Assembly (NCBI GenBank): GCA_900319955.1
Contig: ONQM01000005.1
Coordinates: 1 to 37,399 of the forward strand
Length of the DNA stretch: 37,399 nt
Direction of reading: 5' to 3'
Source of the DNA: an uncultured Eubacteriales bacterium
Lineage (GTDB): Bacteria; Bacillota_I; Bacilli_A; RF39; UBA660
In this document: one piece after another, positions 2 to 16,524 of the stretch
Position numbering within the stretch: the first letter of the stretch is position 1
How the letters are laid out: every line of letters starts with the position of its first letter
Made by a program: the position numbers and the translations under genes
The notes under the pieces: model-generated
Database searches by the model: none
The model's input: the letters and a program-made list of their open reading frames with translations, nothing else
Told to the model about the DNA's origin: nothing

Positions 2-352
2 AATGGCTGGTATACAGAGTTAAGTGGTGGAAGTAAAATTACATCAGATACTAAAGTAACAGGAGATACAACATATTATGCACAATGGACAGCAACAACT
101 TATACTAAAAACGTAAGTGGTTCAAATGGATGGAGTGCAGATTATACATGTAGTAATGGAAGAGGAACAATGACAGCATGCTATTATAATGGAACAAAGT
201 GTGATGGTGGCTCTAGCGGCTATTCCTACCGCTTCGACGGGTGTACCTACAGTGCGAGCGACGACCGCCCCTGGCCTTATTACAACTGCAGTACTAGCAT
301 GAGCCGCAACTACGTCCACGGTGGAGGTATGTCTTCTAGTATTTCTTGCTAA
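2..352 (+). CDS. Surface protein C-terminus (partial), InlB/Listeria-Bacteroides-type repeat followed by a DGR-like variable C-terminus
   Basis: The frame is open from base 2 and stops with TAA at 350-352; the start lies left of the window, so 116 C-terminal residues are seen. Residues 2-29 (GWYTELSGG ... TYYAQW) match the last part of an InlB B-repeat (Listeria-Bacteroides repeat), a beta-grasp module of secreted surface proteins. Residues 30-116 are Gly/Ser/Tyr-rich with six Cys, which could form disulfides outside the cell. Codon use changes abruptly: 3 of 69 codons end in C before base 209, but 25 of 37 do in 209-319, and GC there is about 59%. Such a run of NNC codons at the 3' end of a gene is what adenine mutagenesis of AAC codons produces in DGR target genes. 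No LPxTG anchor or transmembrane tail follows. The surface-repeat call is firm; the ligand and exact fold are unknown. Confidence 0.75.
   Translation, partial: NGWYTELSGGSKITSDTKVTGDTTYYAQWTATTYTKNVSGSNGWSADYTCSNGRGTMTACYYNGTKCDGGSSGYSYRFDGCTYSASDDRPWPYYNCSTSMSRNYVHGGGMSSSISC
209..322 (+). other. Candidate DGR variable region (VR)
   Basis: This 114-bp block at the 3' end of the partial surface gene is GC-rich in a very AT-rich genome and has 25 NNC codons out of the 37 that start at 209-317 (TAC, CGC, GAC, AGC, AAC, CAC, GTC, TGC and others). In known DGRs the template repeat is rich in AAC codons, whose first two adenines are randomised by error-prone reverse transcription, giving NNC codons that cannot be stops. 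The block is followed by a constant-looking tail and a strong inverted repeat just after the stop, as in known DGR targets. No reverse transcriptase, accessory gene or template repeat lies in the window, so those would have to be to the left or elsewhere in the genome. The pattern is seen; the mechanism is inferred. Confidence 0.6.
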
Positions 353-384
353 TATAGTATGCGATAAGCATACTATATTTTTTT
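351..384 (+). terminator. Strong hairpin after the surface-protein gene (terminator, possibly also DGR cruciform)
   Basis: A perfect 12-bp inverted repeat occupies 351-362 and 368-379 with a GATAA loop, followed by a T-rich tract. It reads as a Rho-independent terminator overlapping the stop codon. In characterised DGRs a hairpin or cruciform a few bases past the variable region helps retrohoming, so it may have two roles. Confidence 0.8.
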
Positions 385-427: not shown

Positions 428-2200
428 ATGAAAGATTTTAAAGAGAAGTTAGCTTTAGTTCCAACTAAACCTGGTAGTTATCAAATGAAAGATAAAGATG
501 GAATAATTATATATGTTGGTAAAGCTAAAAACTTGCAAAGAAGATTAAGAAGTTATTTTACAAGAACTGTATATGGTAAAACTAAGATGCTTGTTGAAAA
601 TATTGATGACTTTGACTATATTGTTACATCAAGTGAATTAGAGTCTTTAATTCTTGAAATAACTTTAATTAAAAAATATAATCCTAAATATAATATACTT
701 CTTAAAGATGATAAATCTTATCCTTATATAGAACTTACTAATGAAAAGTATCCTAGAGTTAGAATAGTTAGAAATGCTAAAAGAAAAAAAGTTAAATCAA
801 GACTTTTTGGTCCATATCCTAATACTTATGCTGCTAGAAAAACAGTAGAAATAATTAATAAAATATATCCGTTAAGAAAATGTGAGCATTTAAAAGATGC
901 ACCTTGTCTTTATTACCATATAGGACAGTGTCTAGGATATTGCTTTAAAGATATAGATAAAGAAACTATCGATAATATGAATAAAGAAATAATATCTTTC
1001 TTAAAAGGTGATAGTACCAAAGTAGAAGAAAGATTAAAAAGTGAGATGGAAAAAGCATCTAATGCTATGAATTATGAAAGAGCATTAGAATATAAGAATA
1101 TGCTTGATGATGTTAAAATAACATTAAAGAAACAAAAAATAGATCTCAATAAAGGATATAATTTTGATATGATTAACTTCTATAGAGATGAAAATTATTT
1201 AAGTGTTGTTATATTCTTTATAAGAGATGGACTTCTATTTGGAAGAGATAAAGGCATAGTTAAAACACTTGATGATACAGAAGAAGATTTAACAGAATAT
1301 ATAATTAAATATTATGATAAAAAAGGACTTTTACCAACTAAACTATATGTACCTGAAGAAATAAATAGTGAAGTACTATCAGAGTACTTTAATATAAAAG
1401 TTTTAACAGCATATAGAGGTAAATTAAAGAGCTTATCAGATTTAGCTAGAGAAAACGCTAAAACAAATCTTAAGAATAATGAAAAAGAATTAATTAAAGA
1501 TGAAGAAAAGAGACTTGATGCTTCTAAAGAACTTGCAAAACTTCTTAATATTCCAAAAGTAGAAAGAATAGAGTCTTTTGATAACTCTCATCTTTTTGGA
1601 ACATATTATGTTGGAGGCATGGTTGTATTTGATAACTTTAAACCAAATAAAAACTTATATAGGAAATATAAACTTGCAGAAGGTGTAAAAGATGATATTA
1701 GTGCAATGAGAGAAGTTCTTTATAGAAGATATTCTAAAAGTGTAATAGATAGAGAATATGTACCAGACTTAATTGTACTAGATGGTGGTGTATCACAAAT
1801 AAACGTATGTAAAGAAGTACTTGATGAGCTTCATTTAAATATACCTCTTTGTGGTCTTGTTAAAGATGATAAACATAGAACGAATCATCTTCTTAATTCT
1901 GATTTAGAATTAATTGAGATAGATTCTCACTCTAATTTATTCCTTTATTTATCTAAAATACAGGAAGAAGTACACCGCTTTGCAATAACATATCATAGAA
2001 CTATTAAAGCTAAAGGGCTACTTCAGTCAACACTTGATATGGTACCAGGTATAGGAGAAGTAAGAAAGAAAGAATTAATAAGACACTTTGGATCATTTAA
2101 GAAAATGAAAGAAGCATCTAAAGAAGAATTACTTGACATATTACCAAGTGATGTCGCAGAAAATCTGTATAATTTTTTACAAAGTTCTAGCAATAGCTAG
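428..2200 (+). CDS. uvrC: UvrABC excinuclease subunit C
   Basis: UvrC is the nuclease of nucleotide excision repair; it cuts both sides of a lesion marked by UvrA/UvrB. At 590 residues the length is normal. The N-terminal GIY-YIG nuclease domain is visible (G16-S17-Y18 and Y29-V30-G31), then the Cys-rich RKC...C...C region conserved in the family (residues about 150-175), a UVR coiled segment that binds UvrB (about 195-225), the RNase H-like second nuclease domain, and a C-terminal helix-hairpin-helix (PGIGEVRKKEL). ATG 428 is chosen because AAAGGAG at 413-419 is spaced 8 bases before it; the upstream in-frame GTG at 410 has no Shine-Dalgarno sequence. It is monocistronic, with its own promoter and a terminator at 2184-2209. 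No UvrA or UvrB gene is in the window. Confidence 0.97.
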   Translation: MKDFKEKLALVPTKPGSYQMKDKDGIIIYVGKAKNLQRRLRSYFTRTVYGKTKMLVENIDDFDYIVTSSELESLILEITLIKKYNPKYNILLKDDKSYPYIELTNEKYPRVRIVRNAKRKKVKSRLFGPYPNTYAARKTVEIINKIYPLRKCEHLKDAPCLYYHIGQCLGYCFKDIDKETIDNMNKEIISFLKGDSTKVEERLKSEMEKASNAMNYERALEYKNMLDDVKITLKKQKIDLNKGYNFDMINFYRDENYLSVVIFFIRDGLLFGRDKGIVKTLDDTEEDLTEYIIKYYDKKGLLPTKLYVPEEINSEVLSEYFNIKVLTAYRGKLKSLSDLARENAKTNLKNNEKELIKDEEKRLDASKELAKLLNIPKVERIESFDNSHLFGTYYVGGMVVFDNFKPNKNLYRKYKLAEGVKDDISAMREVLYRRYSKSVIDREYVPDLIVLDGGVSQINVCKEVLDELHLNIPLCGLVKDDKHRTNHLLNSDLELIEIDSHSNLFLYLSKIQEEVHRFAITYHRTIKAKGLLQSTLDMVPGIGEVRKKELIRHFGSFKKMKEASKEELLDILPSDVAENLYNFLQSSSNS

Positions 2201-2209
2201 ACTTTTTTT
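2184..2209 (+). terminator. uvrC terminator
   Basis: GTTCTAGC-AATA-GCTAGAC forms a stem with one bulged base and is followed by seven T. The uvrC stop codon is inside the hairpin. Confidence 0.8.
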
Positions 2210-2242
2210 GTATAATAATTTTATAGTCGGAGAGTGATAAAC

Positions 2243-2689
2243 ATGAATAAAAAAGGATTTACACTTGTTGAACTTTTAGCAGTTATGGCTCTTGTTGCAA
2301 TGCTTTCAGGAGTAGCAGTCGCTGCAACTACAAAATGGATAGTAAAATCAAAAAAAGATACATTTACAAACTATGAAGAAAACTTACAAAAGGCTGCAGA
2401 AAACTATATATCTAGTAGAACAGATTTAGTTGTACCTGGTGATACTGCAGGAACAAACATAAGTGCTGCAGATATGCATGATAGTGGAGTTCTTGAAAAT
2501 TTAATTGATCCAATAAAAAAAGAACCATGTTCTTATAAAAATAGTTATGTAAATGTTAAAGGTGTATATGATACAGCTGATTCATACAACATAACATATA
2601 AATATATTACATGTCTAAGATGTCCTAATTATACAAGTGAAGCTTGTTCTAATCCAGTATTTAGTAATATAAAAATTGTTGATGAATAG
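2243..2689 (+). CDS. Type IV pilin-like (prepilin N-terminal) protein
   Basis: This 148-residue protein starts with a class III prepilin signal: KKGFTLVELLAVMAL, with cleavage expected between Gly and Phe and the conserved Glu at +5 of the mature protein, followed by a hydrophobic helix of about 20 residues. Such proteins are processed by a prepilin peptidase and assembled into pili or pseudopili. The C-terminal part has four Cys (PCSYK, TCLRCP, EACS), so a disulfide-stabilised head is plausible. ATG 2243 is chosen from CGGAGAG at 2229-2235; the in-frame GTG at 2234 lacks a site. No other pilus gene (ATPase, platform protein, peptidase) is in the window, so the protein would depend on machinery elsewhere. 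It may be a competence-type pseudopilin or a lone surface fibre protein. Confidence 0.85.
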   Translation: MNKKGFTLVELLAVMALVAMLSGVAVAATTKWIVKSKKDTFTNYEENLQKAAENYISSRTDLVVPGDTAGTNISAADMHDSGVLENLIDPIKKEPCSYKNSYVNVKGVYDTADSYNITYKYITCLRCPNYTSEACSNPVFSNIKIVDE

Positions 2690-2712
2690 AATTGAAAAAC
2701 TAAATTAAATAT

Positions 2713-2753
2713 ATTATCAGAAGTTTTATTATTTAAATAGCTTATTTAATAAT
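2713..2753 (+). terminator. Possible terminator of the pilin gene
   Basis: An AT-only stem, ATTATTTAAATA / TATTTAATAAT with loop GCT and one bulged T, lies shortly after the pilin stop. It lacks a good T-run, so termination is uncertain. Confidence 0.3.
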
Positions 2754-2797
2754 TCTTGTATCATATTTTAATCAAGCTGTACTTTAAAACATAAATT

Positions 2798-2966
2798 TGA
2801 TATAGTAAAGGCGTATTAAATGAAGAAACCTTCATATAATATATTTGAGGCTAATGTTAGTCTTCATGAAAAAGCGAGTGATCCCAACTCCTTATGGATG
2901 CGTATGTATCACATAAGTTAATAGGGAATGGAAAAAGTAATCAGAGATTAATTTCTCTGATTTTTT
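2798..2966 (+). ncRNA. Structured RNA ending in a terminator, probable antitoxin RNA of the adjacent type III toxin locus
   Basis: An extended -10 (TGATATAGT, 2798-2806) is followed by a non-coding stretch that folds well: GAGGCTA/TAGTCTT (2847-2853 with 2858-2864), CTTATG/CATAAG (2891-2896 with 2912-2917), and a perfect 9-bp terminator stem at 2939-2947/2954-2962 followed by T residues. GTGAT at 2878-2882 can pair with ATCAC at 2908-2912, almost wholly inside the CTTATG/CATAAG loop, which would be a pseudoknot. ATGAAGA at 2820-2826 can pair with either CTTCAT (2830) or TCTTCAT (2861). Type III toxin-antitoxin loci have the order promoter, antitoxin RNA, terminator, toxin gene, as here. However, the tandem repeats usual for those antitoxins are not obvious. 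It could instead be an unrelated small RNA. Confidence 0.5.
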
Positions 2967-3043
2967 GATATTTATTAAAAAAATCCTTGTAAGTATTTAA
3001 ATAGTTTGTTATTATTTAATTAAATTGAAAGGGTGGTTTATAA

Positions 3044-3561
3044 ATGAATGATTTAATAATTGTAAGAATTGATGAAAAATATTGTAACTATTTAAGAAAA
3101 TTTGATAGCAAAGTTCCATATAATCATATAATTATGGTAAGAAAAAATTAAGACCATTTGTTGGAGCATTATTCAAGGTATAAGGTATACTTTATTTTGC
3201 ACCTCTTTCAAGTCCTAAACCTAAACATTTGAAATTAAAAAATAAATTAGATTTTATGAAGATAAATAATGGTAAATGGGGCACTATCAATTTTAATAAT
3301 ATGCTTCCAGTAACAAGAAATAATATTATTGAAATTGATTTAAATGTAAAAGTAAAAGACGAAAATCAAAGAAAATATGTAAGTCTTTTAAGAGACCAAT
3401 TAAGATGGCTAAGACGTAATAGCGATGATTTATATAGAAAATCATATAAACTTTATAATGAATATGTAAATGGAACATTAAATAAAGGTATAATGAAAAG
3501 ATGCTGTAATTTTAAATTATTAGAAGAAAAGTGTAAAGAATATAATGAAAAAAATAATTAA
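3044..3561 (+). pseudogene. Type III toxin-antitoxin endoribonuclease, ToxN/AbiQ family, disrupted
   Basis: The first 30 or so codons from ATG 3044 (site GGGTGG upstream) read MNDLIIVRIDEKYCNYLRKF..., like the N-terminus of ToxN/AbiQ toxins. The frame ends at TAA 3149-3151. After an A-run at 3142-3147 the family sequence continues in another frame (KKLRPFVGALFKV), meets an in-frame TAA at 3181-3183, then resumes with the hallmark APLSSPKPKH and INFNNMLPV and runs to 3561. Two independent lesions make it a pseudogene. The intact family cuts RNA and gives abortive-infection phage defence when its RNA antitoxin is titrated. The 110-residue open part from TTG 3229 has no good ribosome site. The preceding structured RNA with its terminator fits the standard locus order. 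Confidence 0.85.
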
Positions 3562-4963
3562 ACATAAAAATATAATACTATTTATAAGCTTTATAACAAT
3601 TACTATTATAGGCTTTCTTTGTCATGAAATATGGGAAGATGAAGCTCAAGAATATTTAATTATTAAAAATTTAGACTTAATAGGTATATTTAAAAATGCT
3701 TATTTAGAAGGGCATCCAGTACTCTATTATTATATACTTTATCCATTTATTAAAGTAGGATTTGGTCCTAGAATAGTAAATATAATTAGTTTAATATTTA
3801 TGTATATTGGAGTATATATAATAATATTTAAATTAAAAATAAATGATTTATTAAAGATACTTTTTATAACGCACTATTCAGTTATTTATCAGTATTCTCT
3901 TATTGGAAGAAGTTATTCTTTAGTTTTTTTATTAATTCTTTTGATTACATATTATTATAAAGAAAGAGATGAAAGAAGTATTCTTTATTCAGTTTTATTA
4001 GGACTTCTTCTTAATACTCATCTTTTAGCAGTACCTTTTTCTATAATTCTATTTATATTTACATATATAGATAAGATAAAAAATAAAAAATTAAATAAAA
4101 AAGATTATATTGGAATAATAACATACTTATTATTTTGTATATTACTTTTTATGCAATTTTATAAACTAATGACAATAAGTAATGGAATGAGTTTAAGTAA
4201 AGATAATTTGTTTTTATCATTTTTAGGAGTATTTTTTGGAGCACCTTTATTTATATTTAATAATAGTCACCCATTCCTAACTGTATTTGGATACATATTT
4301 TTCTTCTATACTTTTTATATATTTTATAAAAGTGATAAGAAAATATTTTTAATAGAATTATTAAACTACATTATATTTGTACTTTTATATTCTAAAATAA
4401 GTGGACTATTTTTCTATACACATAGACTAAACTTTTACTTCTTCTTTCTTATATTTGGACTTTCTAATATAAATTATAAATATAATAGAAAAGAGTATAT
4501 ATTAATAATACTTGTAATAATAATAGGACTTATTATGGATATTAGAAGTTATTGCTTAGAGATTAATTATAAATATTCTGATGGACTAAGTGCATCTAAA
4601 TATATAAGAAATAATATAAACAAAGAAAATACTATATATACAGTAAGTGATAGAGAAGAAGACGTTTTAGTACTTCCTGTTATACTCTATAGTGATAATT
4701 ATAAATTTTACAATCTAAATAGTAATAAATATTATAAATATGTTATATGGAATAAAGAAAGAGAAAAAAAATTAGATTATAAAAATATATGTAAAGAATT
4801 AAATAAGAATAATAAATCATATTTATTGCTTACTAAGAATTATGAAAATAAAGAAAAACTATTAAATAAACTTTCTAAAGACTATAAAGTAAAAGTACTT
4901 TACACATCAGATAAAAAATCTATTACAAAAGAATCTTATATATTATATGAAAGGACAAAATAA
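3545..4963 (+). CDS. Polytopic membrane protein, GT-C (PMT/ArnT-like) glycosyltransferase candidate
   Basis: A 472-residue integral membrane protein with about ten hydrophobic helices. Its first extracytoplasmic loop carries an acidic pair in HEIWEDEAQ (residues 28-35), the place where GT-C lipid-phosphate-sugar-dependent transferases hold their catalytic Asp/Glu. The region GHPVLYYYILYPF and the Arg-Ser-Tyr (GRSYS) further on also fit this fold. The last 120 residues are soluble and Lys/Asn/Tyr-rich. A role in decorating cell-wall polymers or surface proteins with sugar is inferred; the acceptor is unknown. The ATG lies 17 bases inside the 3' end of the ToxN pseudogene, in another frame, so expression may once have been coupled to it. 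No terminator separates them. Confidence 0.7.
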   Translation: MKKIIKHKNIILFISFITITIIGFLCHEIWEDEAQEYLIIKNLDLIGIFKNAYLEGHPVLYYYILYPFIKVGFGPRIVNIISLIFMYIGVYIIIFKLKINDLLKILFITHYSVIYQYSLIGRSYSLVFLLILLITYYYKERDERSILYSVLLGLLLNTHLLAVPFSIILFIFTYIDKIKNKKLNKKDYIGIITYLLFCILLFMQFYKLMTISNGMSLSKDNLFLSFLGVFFGAPLFIFNNSHPFLTVFGYIFFFYTFYIFYKSDKKIFLIELLNYIIFVLLYSKISGLFFYTHRLNFYFFFLIFGLSNINYKYNRKEYILIILVIIIGLIMDIRSYCLEINYKYSDGLSASKYIRNNINKENTIYTVSDREEDVLVLPVILYSDNYKFYNLNSNKYYKYVIWNKEREKKLDYKNICKELNKNNKSYLLLTKNYENKEKLLNKLSKDYKVKVLYTSDKKSITKESYILYERTK

Positions 4964-14466: not shown

Positions 14467-16524
14467 ATGGAAATTGTAAAACAGGAGGGAATCAAAGATT
14501 GTGGAGTATGCTCGCTACTTTCAGTAATTAGATTTTATGGTGGTAATGTTTCATTAGAATATTTAAGAGAACTAACAGGAACCACAAAAAATGGTGTAAC
14601 TGCACTAAATTTAGTAAATGCTGCAACAAGTCTTGGATTTGACTCCTATGGTCTAAAGGAAAAGCTTGAAGATATTAAAGTTGAAGATTTACCTATAATC
14701 AGTCATATAATAGTTAATAAAAATCTTAAACATTTCATAGTAATATACGGAATAGATAAAAAGTGTGAAAAAATACTTGTAATGGATCCTTATTATGGTA
14801 AAAAAATATTATCTTTTACAGAATTTAATTTAATGACAAGTAATGTCTATATTTATTTAAAGCCAGTTAGACATTTGCCTATAATAAAAGAAAAAGAAAT
14901 AATAAAACCATGGGTTAAAGATTTTTTAAAAAATAATAGCACTGTTTATTTAATAATCTTTGTTATACTAGAGTTTATTCTAACTATACTATGTTCTTCT
15001 GAATTTAATGTATTTATAAATGAAGCAGTAAACTATAATATGCTAAATAATGTAAAAGTTATTACGTTACTATTTATTACATTAGAACTTTATAAAGAAT
15101 TAGTAGGTATAATAACTTTATCTTATTCATTAAAATTAACAACAAACTTAAATGAGTATTTAACTAAAAAAATACTTTCTAGAATTACACTACTTCCATA
15201 TCTTTACTATGAGACAAGAACAAGTGGAGAAGTAATATCAAAAGTAAAAGATTTAGAAAACATTAAAAATTTTTTAATCAAATTTATTTCAAGATTTCCA
15301 CTTGATTTAATGATAATAATACTTGTTTTAATTAAATTAATAAAATTTAATTTAAATGTATTTTTAATAATTATTTTAATATATTCAATAAAAATTATAT
15401 TTAAAATATTTTATTTAAGAATATATAAAGTAAAGAAAGAATTTATGTTAAGAGATGAAGATAAAGTAAATGGCGTATTATATGAAAATGTAAAAGGTAT
15501 GCAAAGTATTAAGGGCATGCATATAGAAAAAGAAAGATTAAATAGATTCTTAAAGATATATAGAAATTTCTTATCAAAATCATATGATCTTATCATGCTT
15601 AGTGGAGGAGCATCAAAGATAGATGATTTCTTAATGGAACTTGCAAGACTTATACTTCTTTCTTATTCATCTATTATGATAATTAATGGAAAATTAAAAC
15701 TTGCAAGCTTAATACTTATTTATACACTTTATACATACTTTGAATCAGCAGTATTAGATATGTTTTCAATATTTACAAATTATACTGATTATAGAGTATC
15801 TAAAAAGAGAATTGAAGATTTATTTATGGTAAATATTGATAACTTTAACTGCAATGAATACTTTAATAAGTATGAATTAAAAGGGCCTATTAAAATTAAA
15901 AATTTAAATTATAAATATGGAGTTAGAAAGATATTTGATAATTTATGTTTAGAAATAAAGAAACAAGAAAAAATTATTTTAATAGGAGAAAGTGGAATAG
16001 GCAAATCAACTCTTATGAAAATAATAAGTGGTTTTATTGAAGTTCCAAGTGGTATGGTTAAAATAGGACCATTTGATATTTCTCATATTCATTTAGACTT
16101 AATAAGAACAAAAATTTCCTACACCTCTCAAAAGGAAGCTCTTTTTACAGGAACTATAAGAGACAATATAATATATAAAGGAGATGAGGATTTAGATAAA
16201 ATAATAGATATTGTTGGACTTAATAAAATATTTAAAAGTTCTTTAGGACTTGATGAAGTAATTGAAGAAGATGGAGAAAACTTAAGTGGAGGTGAAAGGC
16301 AAAGAATAATACTTGCAAGAAGTTTGATGAAAAAAAGTGATATCTACATATTTGATGAAGCTTTTAATGAACTTAATATTGAAGAAGAAAAGCGTATTGT
16401 TAAAAATATTTTAAAGTATCTAAAAAATAAAATAGTTATAGTTATTAGTCATAGATTAACAACACTTGATTTATTTGATAGAATTTTAGTTTTAGAAGGA
16501 GGTAAAATACATGAGAAATTATAA
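14467..16524 (+). CDS. Peptidase-containing ABC exporter (C39, bacteriocin processing and export)
   Basis: The 685-residue protein combines three parts. Residues 1-130 are a C39 cysteine protease: Gln6, catalytic Cys12 in KDCGVCSLL, His89 in LKHFIVIYG and Asp107 in VMDPYYG. Residues about 150-430 form the membrane domain. Residues about 460-685 form the ATPase, with Walker A GESGIGKST (507-515), signature LSGGERQR (from 606) and Walker B IYIFDEA. Such proteins cut double-glycine leaders from bacteriocins or pheromones while exporting them. The genes just downstream encode two peptides with exactly such leaders, so substrate and exporter are linked here. A strong site (GGGAGGTG) precedes ATG 14467, and the gene has its own transcript after the tRNA terminator. 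The next gene overlaps its 3' end by 14 bases. Confidence 0.96.
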   Translation: MEIVKQEGIKDCGVCSLLSVIRFYGGNVSLEYLRELTGTTKNGVTALNLVNAATSLGFDSYGLKEKLEDIKVEDLPIISHIIVNKNLKHFIVIYGIDKKCEKILVMDPYYGKKILSFTEFNLMTSNVYIYLKPVRHLPIIKEKEIIKPWVKDFLKNNSTVYLIIFVILEFILTILCSSEFNVFINEAVNYNMLNNVKVITLLFITLELYKELVGIITLSYSLKLTTNLNEYLTKKILSRITLLPYLYYETRTSGEVISKVKDLENIKNFLIKFISRFPLDLMIIILVLIKLIKFNLNVFLIIILIYSIKIIFKIFYLRIYKVKKEFMLRDEDKVNGVLYENVKGMQSIKGMHIEKERLNRFLKIYRNFLSKSYDLIMLSGGASKIDDFLMELARLILLSYSSIMIINGKLKLASLILIYTLYTYFESAVLDMFSIFTNYTDYRVSKKRIEDLFMVNIDNFNCNEYFNKYELKGPIKIKNLNYKYGVRKIFDNLCLEIKKQEKIILIGESGIGKSTLMKIISGFIEVPSGMVKIGPFDISHIHLDLIRTKISYTSQKEALFTGTIRDNIIYKGDEDLDKIIDIVGLNKIFKSSLGLDEVIEEDGENLSGGERQRIILARSLMKKSDIYIFDEAFNELNIEEEKRIVKNILKYLKNKIVIVISHRLTTLDLFDRILVLEGGKIHEKL

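Follow-up and report, generated by a model that had tools for sequence, protein, structure and literature searches.

Positions 209-319 of the window, the whole 37,399-nucleotide stretch of DNA analysed here, very likely (probability about 0.9) form a DGR variable region (VR), that is, the randomised 3' end of a putative surface-protein gene; current activity, secretion of the product and action of the DGR in trans are inferred. The window is contig C51 of a 1.24-Mb, 73-contig, 91%-complete genome (MAG) of an uncultured Eubacteriales bacterium, and a complete DGR with AAC-rich template repeats (TRs) and a reverse transcriptase (RT) gene is present on another contig, C70, of the same genome.

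An NNC-rich block at the 3' end of a truncated gene

The target gene is truncated by the contig start, and its 5' end is lost. Its remaining 3' part is an open frame of 116 aa on the forward strand (2-352), in which an InlB/List_Bact-type repeat is followed by a six-cysteine C-terminal domain of about 82 residues (104-349, forward strand), the latter supported by alignments and an AlphaFold2 model. The repeat is matched by PF09479 (22.1 bits, below the 27-bit cut-off, E 1.6e-4), and TIGR02543 also matches the gene below its cut-off. The VR core with its NNC codons (209-319, forward strand) was defined by codon statistics and by comparison of the paralogs on C51, C50 and C62. In this core, C is the last base of 25 of 37 codons, compared with 3 of 68 in 2-205 (Fisher p=3.9e-12; open frame 2-352), and the GC content of the block is 0.55-0.63, against 0.30-0.38 upstream and 0.13-0.28 downstream.

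The block is followed by a constant tail (320-352, forward strand; GGTGGAGGTATGTCTTCTAGTATTTCTTGCTAA), a candidate segment for the initiation of mutagenic homing (IMH), which in a 34-base alignment is 91% identical to the 3' ends of TR1 and TR2, the template repeats on C70. A perfect 12-bp inverted repeat with a 5-base loop (351-379, forward strand; arms 351-362 and 368-379) overlaps the stop codon and folds far better than shuffled sequences (z -7.0). This stem-loop is placed where DGR targets carry one, and it is also terminator-like because a T-run comes after it. The sequence-only reading had claimed the codon bias, the GC-rich block, the constant tail and the perfect 12-bp hairpin, all of which held, with a trivial difference in the number of upstream codons (69 in that reading, 68 here).

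Elsewhere in the window, a prepilin-like gene (2234-2689; assigned by eye) with the N-terminus KKGFTLVELLAVMALVAMLSG is located downstream of a uvrC-like gene, and a peptidase-containing ABC transporter of the bacteriocin-export type (14467-16524; by eye) is followed by a small membrane protein.

Paralogous blocks differ at the first two codon positions

Two paralogs of the window block, C50:155-348 and C62:5850-6043, have closely similar upstream sequences and the same frame, and each carries a different NNC block. Over the 72 bases at the start of the block, C51 and C62 show 7, 8 and 0 differences at codon positions 1, 2 and 3, respectively, and among the 25 codons with a final C in both, 13 are changed, by definition in their first two bases. 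The C50 block has a different length and aligns less cleanly. Variation between paralogs at codon positions 1 and 2 is thereby shown. The check proposed with the sequence-only reading was for variation at the first two positions of NNC codons; this pattern was found between loci (C51, C50 and C62), not between strains, as the data comprised one genome per species without strain or read data and allowed comparison between paralogs only.

The sharp GC step at the block might also point to DNA of foreign origin, or to an effect of codon usage that has nothing to do with DGRs. This explanation is all but excluded: the frame and the domain are common to C50, C62, C70 and C20, the C-ending bias is limited to the variable block, and templates are present in the genome. 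A homolog with the same domain in the same genome, on C23, where the six-cysteine domain comes after a domain related to lectin/FGE-like targets, has only 2 of 34 codons ending in C and no bias, so that the C-ending bias is not imposed by the protein fold alone.

A complete DGR on another contig of the genome

The DGR on C70 consists of V70, the VR (335-493) at the end of a target gene that shares the C-terminal domain of the window gene; TR1 (937-1065) and TR2 (1427-1564), both AAC-rich template repeats; an Avd-like ORF (1752-2153; NF033474, E 5e-5, below the curated cut-off); the RT (2140-3429; RVT_1, 66 bits, above cut-off; motifs IGAQSSQ and YQDD); and a MutS-like ORF (3643-4065) with relatives at many related RT loci. 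The presence of the RT, the Avd-like and MutS-like genes and the TRs is shown. The motif [LIV]GxxxSQ is characteristic of DGR RTs, and IGAQSSQ of the C70 RT fits it. The genome contains two RT genes, one of them on C70. The sequence-only reading had described a DGR variable region remote from its RT, to be refuted by a genome without an RT and an A-rich template. Both were found on C70, beside a target gene with the same domain, supporting this claim, although the link from the C70 RT to the window VR is only inferred.

MSL/PF01624 has been named as a DGR accessory (PMC10053308). The C-terminus of the C70 RT (L011:3205-3426) matches MutS domain I (PF01624/MutS_I) above cut-off; judging from sequence alone, the RT is apparently fused to a MutS-like accessory domain, and a separate MutS-like gene follows.

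AAC makes up 14 of the 43 codons of TR1, which reads SCSHNGNSCNNTSGCTGNTNNNYNCNNNDNNNGGGLSSSISC. Between TR1 and V70, 15 of 19 mismatches fall on TR adenines (p=6e-6), and the relation is asymmetric, with a mismatch at merely 1 of 27 V70 adenines. Likewise, 18 of 27 mismatches between TR1 and V20, the VR on C20, fall on TR adenines (p=1.6e-5). The adenine-directed nature of the differences between TR and V70 is thus shown. V70 and V20 are nevertheless no clean copies of TR1 or TR2, because the AAC tract of V70 is 30 bases longer than that of TR1 and the 3' end of V20 differs from those of both TRs, its last part being common to V20 and C62. The extra 30 bases of V70 and the end shared by V20 and C62 make it probable that there are, or once were, templates of several lengths.

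Ordinary recombination or gene conversion among C51, C50, C62, C70 and C20, without reverse transcription, might be invoked for these sequences, since V20 looks mosaic, its 5' half resembling TR1 and its 3' end C62, and VR lengths vary. It is very unlikely. Gene conversion accounts neither for NNC codons nor for the location of 15 of 19 differences at template adenines; C-ending codons are dispensable for the protein, as the C23 homolog demonstrates; and the RT, Avd-like and MutS-like genes adjoin the templates.

Under the preferred DGR reading, the C70 element would transcribe its AAC-rich template repeats, and the RT with Avd would copy them, placing random bases at template adenines. The cDNA would then replace the 3' ends of dispersed targets, namely those on C70 and C20 and, by inference, those on C50, C62 and the window contig C51, so that at least five dispersed targets are likely.

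Imperfect 26-bp hairpins were observed at L011:667-730, 813-869 and 1286-1353 (C70) and at L015:3073-3127 (C20), lying before TR1, TR2 and a TR-like piece on C20, and also downstream of V70. Their outer arms are conserved, and their inner arms vary with compensation, 9 of 26 pairs being altered on both sides and 98% remaining paired; none of 500 shuffles was as good, with just four sequences compared. A TR-RNA leader element or MITE-like repeats are both possible interpretations. The piece on C20 (L015:3210-3368), with the TR-like frame CDGGNNKVSSTYMC..., shows a relationship to the six-cysteine domain (E 4e-6) and has the same hairpin leader in front. It is AAC-rich merely in part and may be a decayed template or a decayed VR.

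The template of the window VR is missing from the assembly

When the assembly was searched with an A-tolerant IUPAC pattern for the window VR template, the sole match was the window VR itself, and a DNA search of the assembly with the TR cassettes found no template fitting the window VR. TR1 and TR2 align poorly with it. Because the exact template is absent from the assembly, action of the C70 RT on the window VR in trans, by a missing template, is inferred and rests on the shared domain, the shared 3' end and the paralogs. The missing template is weak evidence against such action, because the MAG is only 91% complete and its contigs break at repeats; C50, C51, C62 and C70 each end at or near these repeats. 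The window template could lie in missing or collapsed repeats. Beyond the assembly, no match to the window VR DNA was found in seven genomes of the same genus, viral contigs searched by domain profile and by 3'-end pattern yielded nothing, and phage records yielded one match at chance level. An Rfam search of the cassettes returned only sub-threshold miRNA-type matches.

It remains possible that the window VR is a fossil, written by the DGR in the past, whose template and downstream recognition element are gone and which is now a fixed gene copy. This alternative is supported by the lack of a fitting TR in the assembly and by the 3' flank of C51, in which the sequence common to other VRs is replaced: a ~190-bp element lies behind the VRs of C70, C20 and C50, and its first 99 bp lie behind that of C62, but C51 lacks it and carries a stem-loop of its own instead. 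In addition, its stop codon is TAA, compared with TAG in the other VRs and the TRs. Against a fossil, the frame is open, the NNC pattern has not decayed to AT-rich codon use, unlike in contig C65 of genome G081 or in C23, and a strong stem-loop still lies 3' of the VR; loss of the template is also unsurprising in an incomplete MAG that breaks at these repeats. Even as a fossil, the window VR would be a DGR-written sequence.

The variable domain is a rare six-cysteine domain

Cysteines at alignment positions 16, 26, 33, 47, 62 and 82 are invariant in nine sequences, two other genera included. The domain is rare, being present in 3 of 386 genomes of the family and in 2 of 385 sampled genomes of the order. 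AlphaFold2 predicted the window copy with a pLDDT of 89.2 and a pTM of 0.79, and the V70 copy with a pLDDT of 76 and a pTM of 0.64, the low-confidence part of the latter being the randomised region. Structure searches gave no Foldseek match at E<=0.001 and no VIA-align match at Z>=2 in the PDB and none in BFVD, and a sequence search of the PDB with the domain profile gave nothing significant.

A C-type lectin/FGE fold was considered for the VR domain and was not recognised: there was no structural match, and the length and cysteine pattern disagree as well. The suggestion made beforehand, that this target has an unusual architecture other than a C-type lectin, therefore held, in that the domain has six cysteines and no C-type lectin is recognisable. 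A missing structural match is not in itself proof of a different fold. In tentaclins, it took better models to recognise that the VR domain has a C-type lectin fold (PMC10743442), and claims of a new scaffold accordingly call for caution.

In the TRs, the Cys codons TGT and TGC hold no adenine and AAC fills the inter-cysteine loops, so mutation cannot destroy the Cys scaffold. New cysteines are possible, as V70 has TGC TGC where TR1 has TGC AAC. In the proposed mechanism, the AAC codons in the loops would become NNC, encoding 15 residue types and no stops. The resulting surface protein would have a stalk of InlB-type repeats, topped by a disulfide-rich binding tip whose loops are randomised. 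Disulfides, secretion, surface display and ligand binding of this product are all inferred.

Genome G081 has two paralogs (L107:69-917 and L108:6537-7382) that combine a camelysin/TasA-like N-terminus (weak match) with a six-cysteine domain, one of the two being mildly C-biased (14 of 37). Neither a DGR RT nor a template was found in G081, whose sole RT is retron-like (QGSPTSAY and YSDD, judged from motifs).

Relatives of the reverse transcriptase

Relatives of the C70 RT (36-52% identity) were collected from 80 loci, nearly all in MAGs of uncultured Bacilli/Tenericutes. A gapless search for A-directed repeat pairs found 52 pairs, distributed among more than half of the remaining loci, in addition to L018 with 21 of 22 mismatches at A; a few of these pairs are short or out of frame and could be spurious. 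Avd-like relatives are present at 38 of the 80 loci. With few exceptions, the VRs of the related loci have lectin/FGE-like ends (...YWTMTP...YGVRPVxxL...; judged by eye), and the six-cysteine domain was found at none of the related RT loci. The C70 RT thus belongs to a clade of DGR RTs, in which the window target type is the exception.

A second DGR-like locus was observed on C27 (L016:4138-7177), with Avd (PF22296, above cut-off), RT and MutS-like ORFs. Its target is of the lectin/FGE type, with an end that looks frameshifted and an adjoining TR-like piece, and the locus may be broken.

Comparison with known systems

Roux et al. reported, from a large metagenomic survey of DGRs, that annotated VRs systematically had C-type lectin folds and that their method would have overlooked remote targets (PMC8144416). 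The present case is a remote-target DGR with a six-cysteine variable domain for which no structural relative was detected. A bolder reading, which we regard as likely, is that it represents a DGR family in which a small disulfide-rich variable scaffold replaces the C-type lectin and several templates at one RT locus write dispersed chromosomal surface-protein genes. If true, DGR diversity can also be borne by a second scaffold of much smaller size, in a design akin to disulfide-rich peptide libraries, offering a natural stop-free library design for binders.

The C70 system resembles the DGR of Bordetella phage BPP-1 (Mtd) in that TR adenines are randomised into a C-terminal VR with Avd and RT, and in BPP-1, too, a stem-loop lies directly 3' of the VR (PMC12875486). 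In BPP-1, however, the target, with its C-type lectin fold, is encoded next to the RT, whereas here targets are dispersed, at least two templates exist and the variable domain has six cysteines. The uncultured Bacilli loci L018-L097 share RTs 36-52% identical, Avd-like and MutS-like genes and A-directed TR/VR pairs, but their VRs end in ...GVRPV...-type lectin/FGE-like domains (by eye), none of them six-cysteine. Thiohalocapsa PB-PSB1 likewise has several DGR loci, some remote or degenerate, with MITE-like hairpin repeats, and diversification in trans has been considered for it (PMC10907252); its targets differ in carrying FGE/C-type lectin domains, partly of conflict systems (PMC10907252). 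In Treponema denticola, one chromosomal RT locus serves several far-off target genes, and SP32 has an orphan VR whose template type is lost (PMC4891356), both of which are similar to the present case. T. denticola TvpA has a C-type lectin/FGE fold. In the T. denticola isolates, a single TR is accompanied by an HRDC accessory (PMC4891356), whereas the genome described here combines two TRs and a TR-like piece with Avd-like and MutS-like accessories and a different scaffold.
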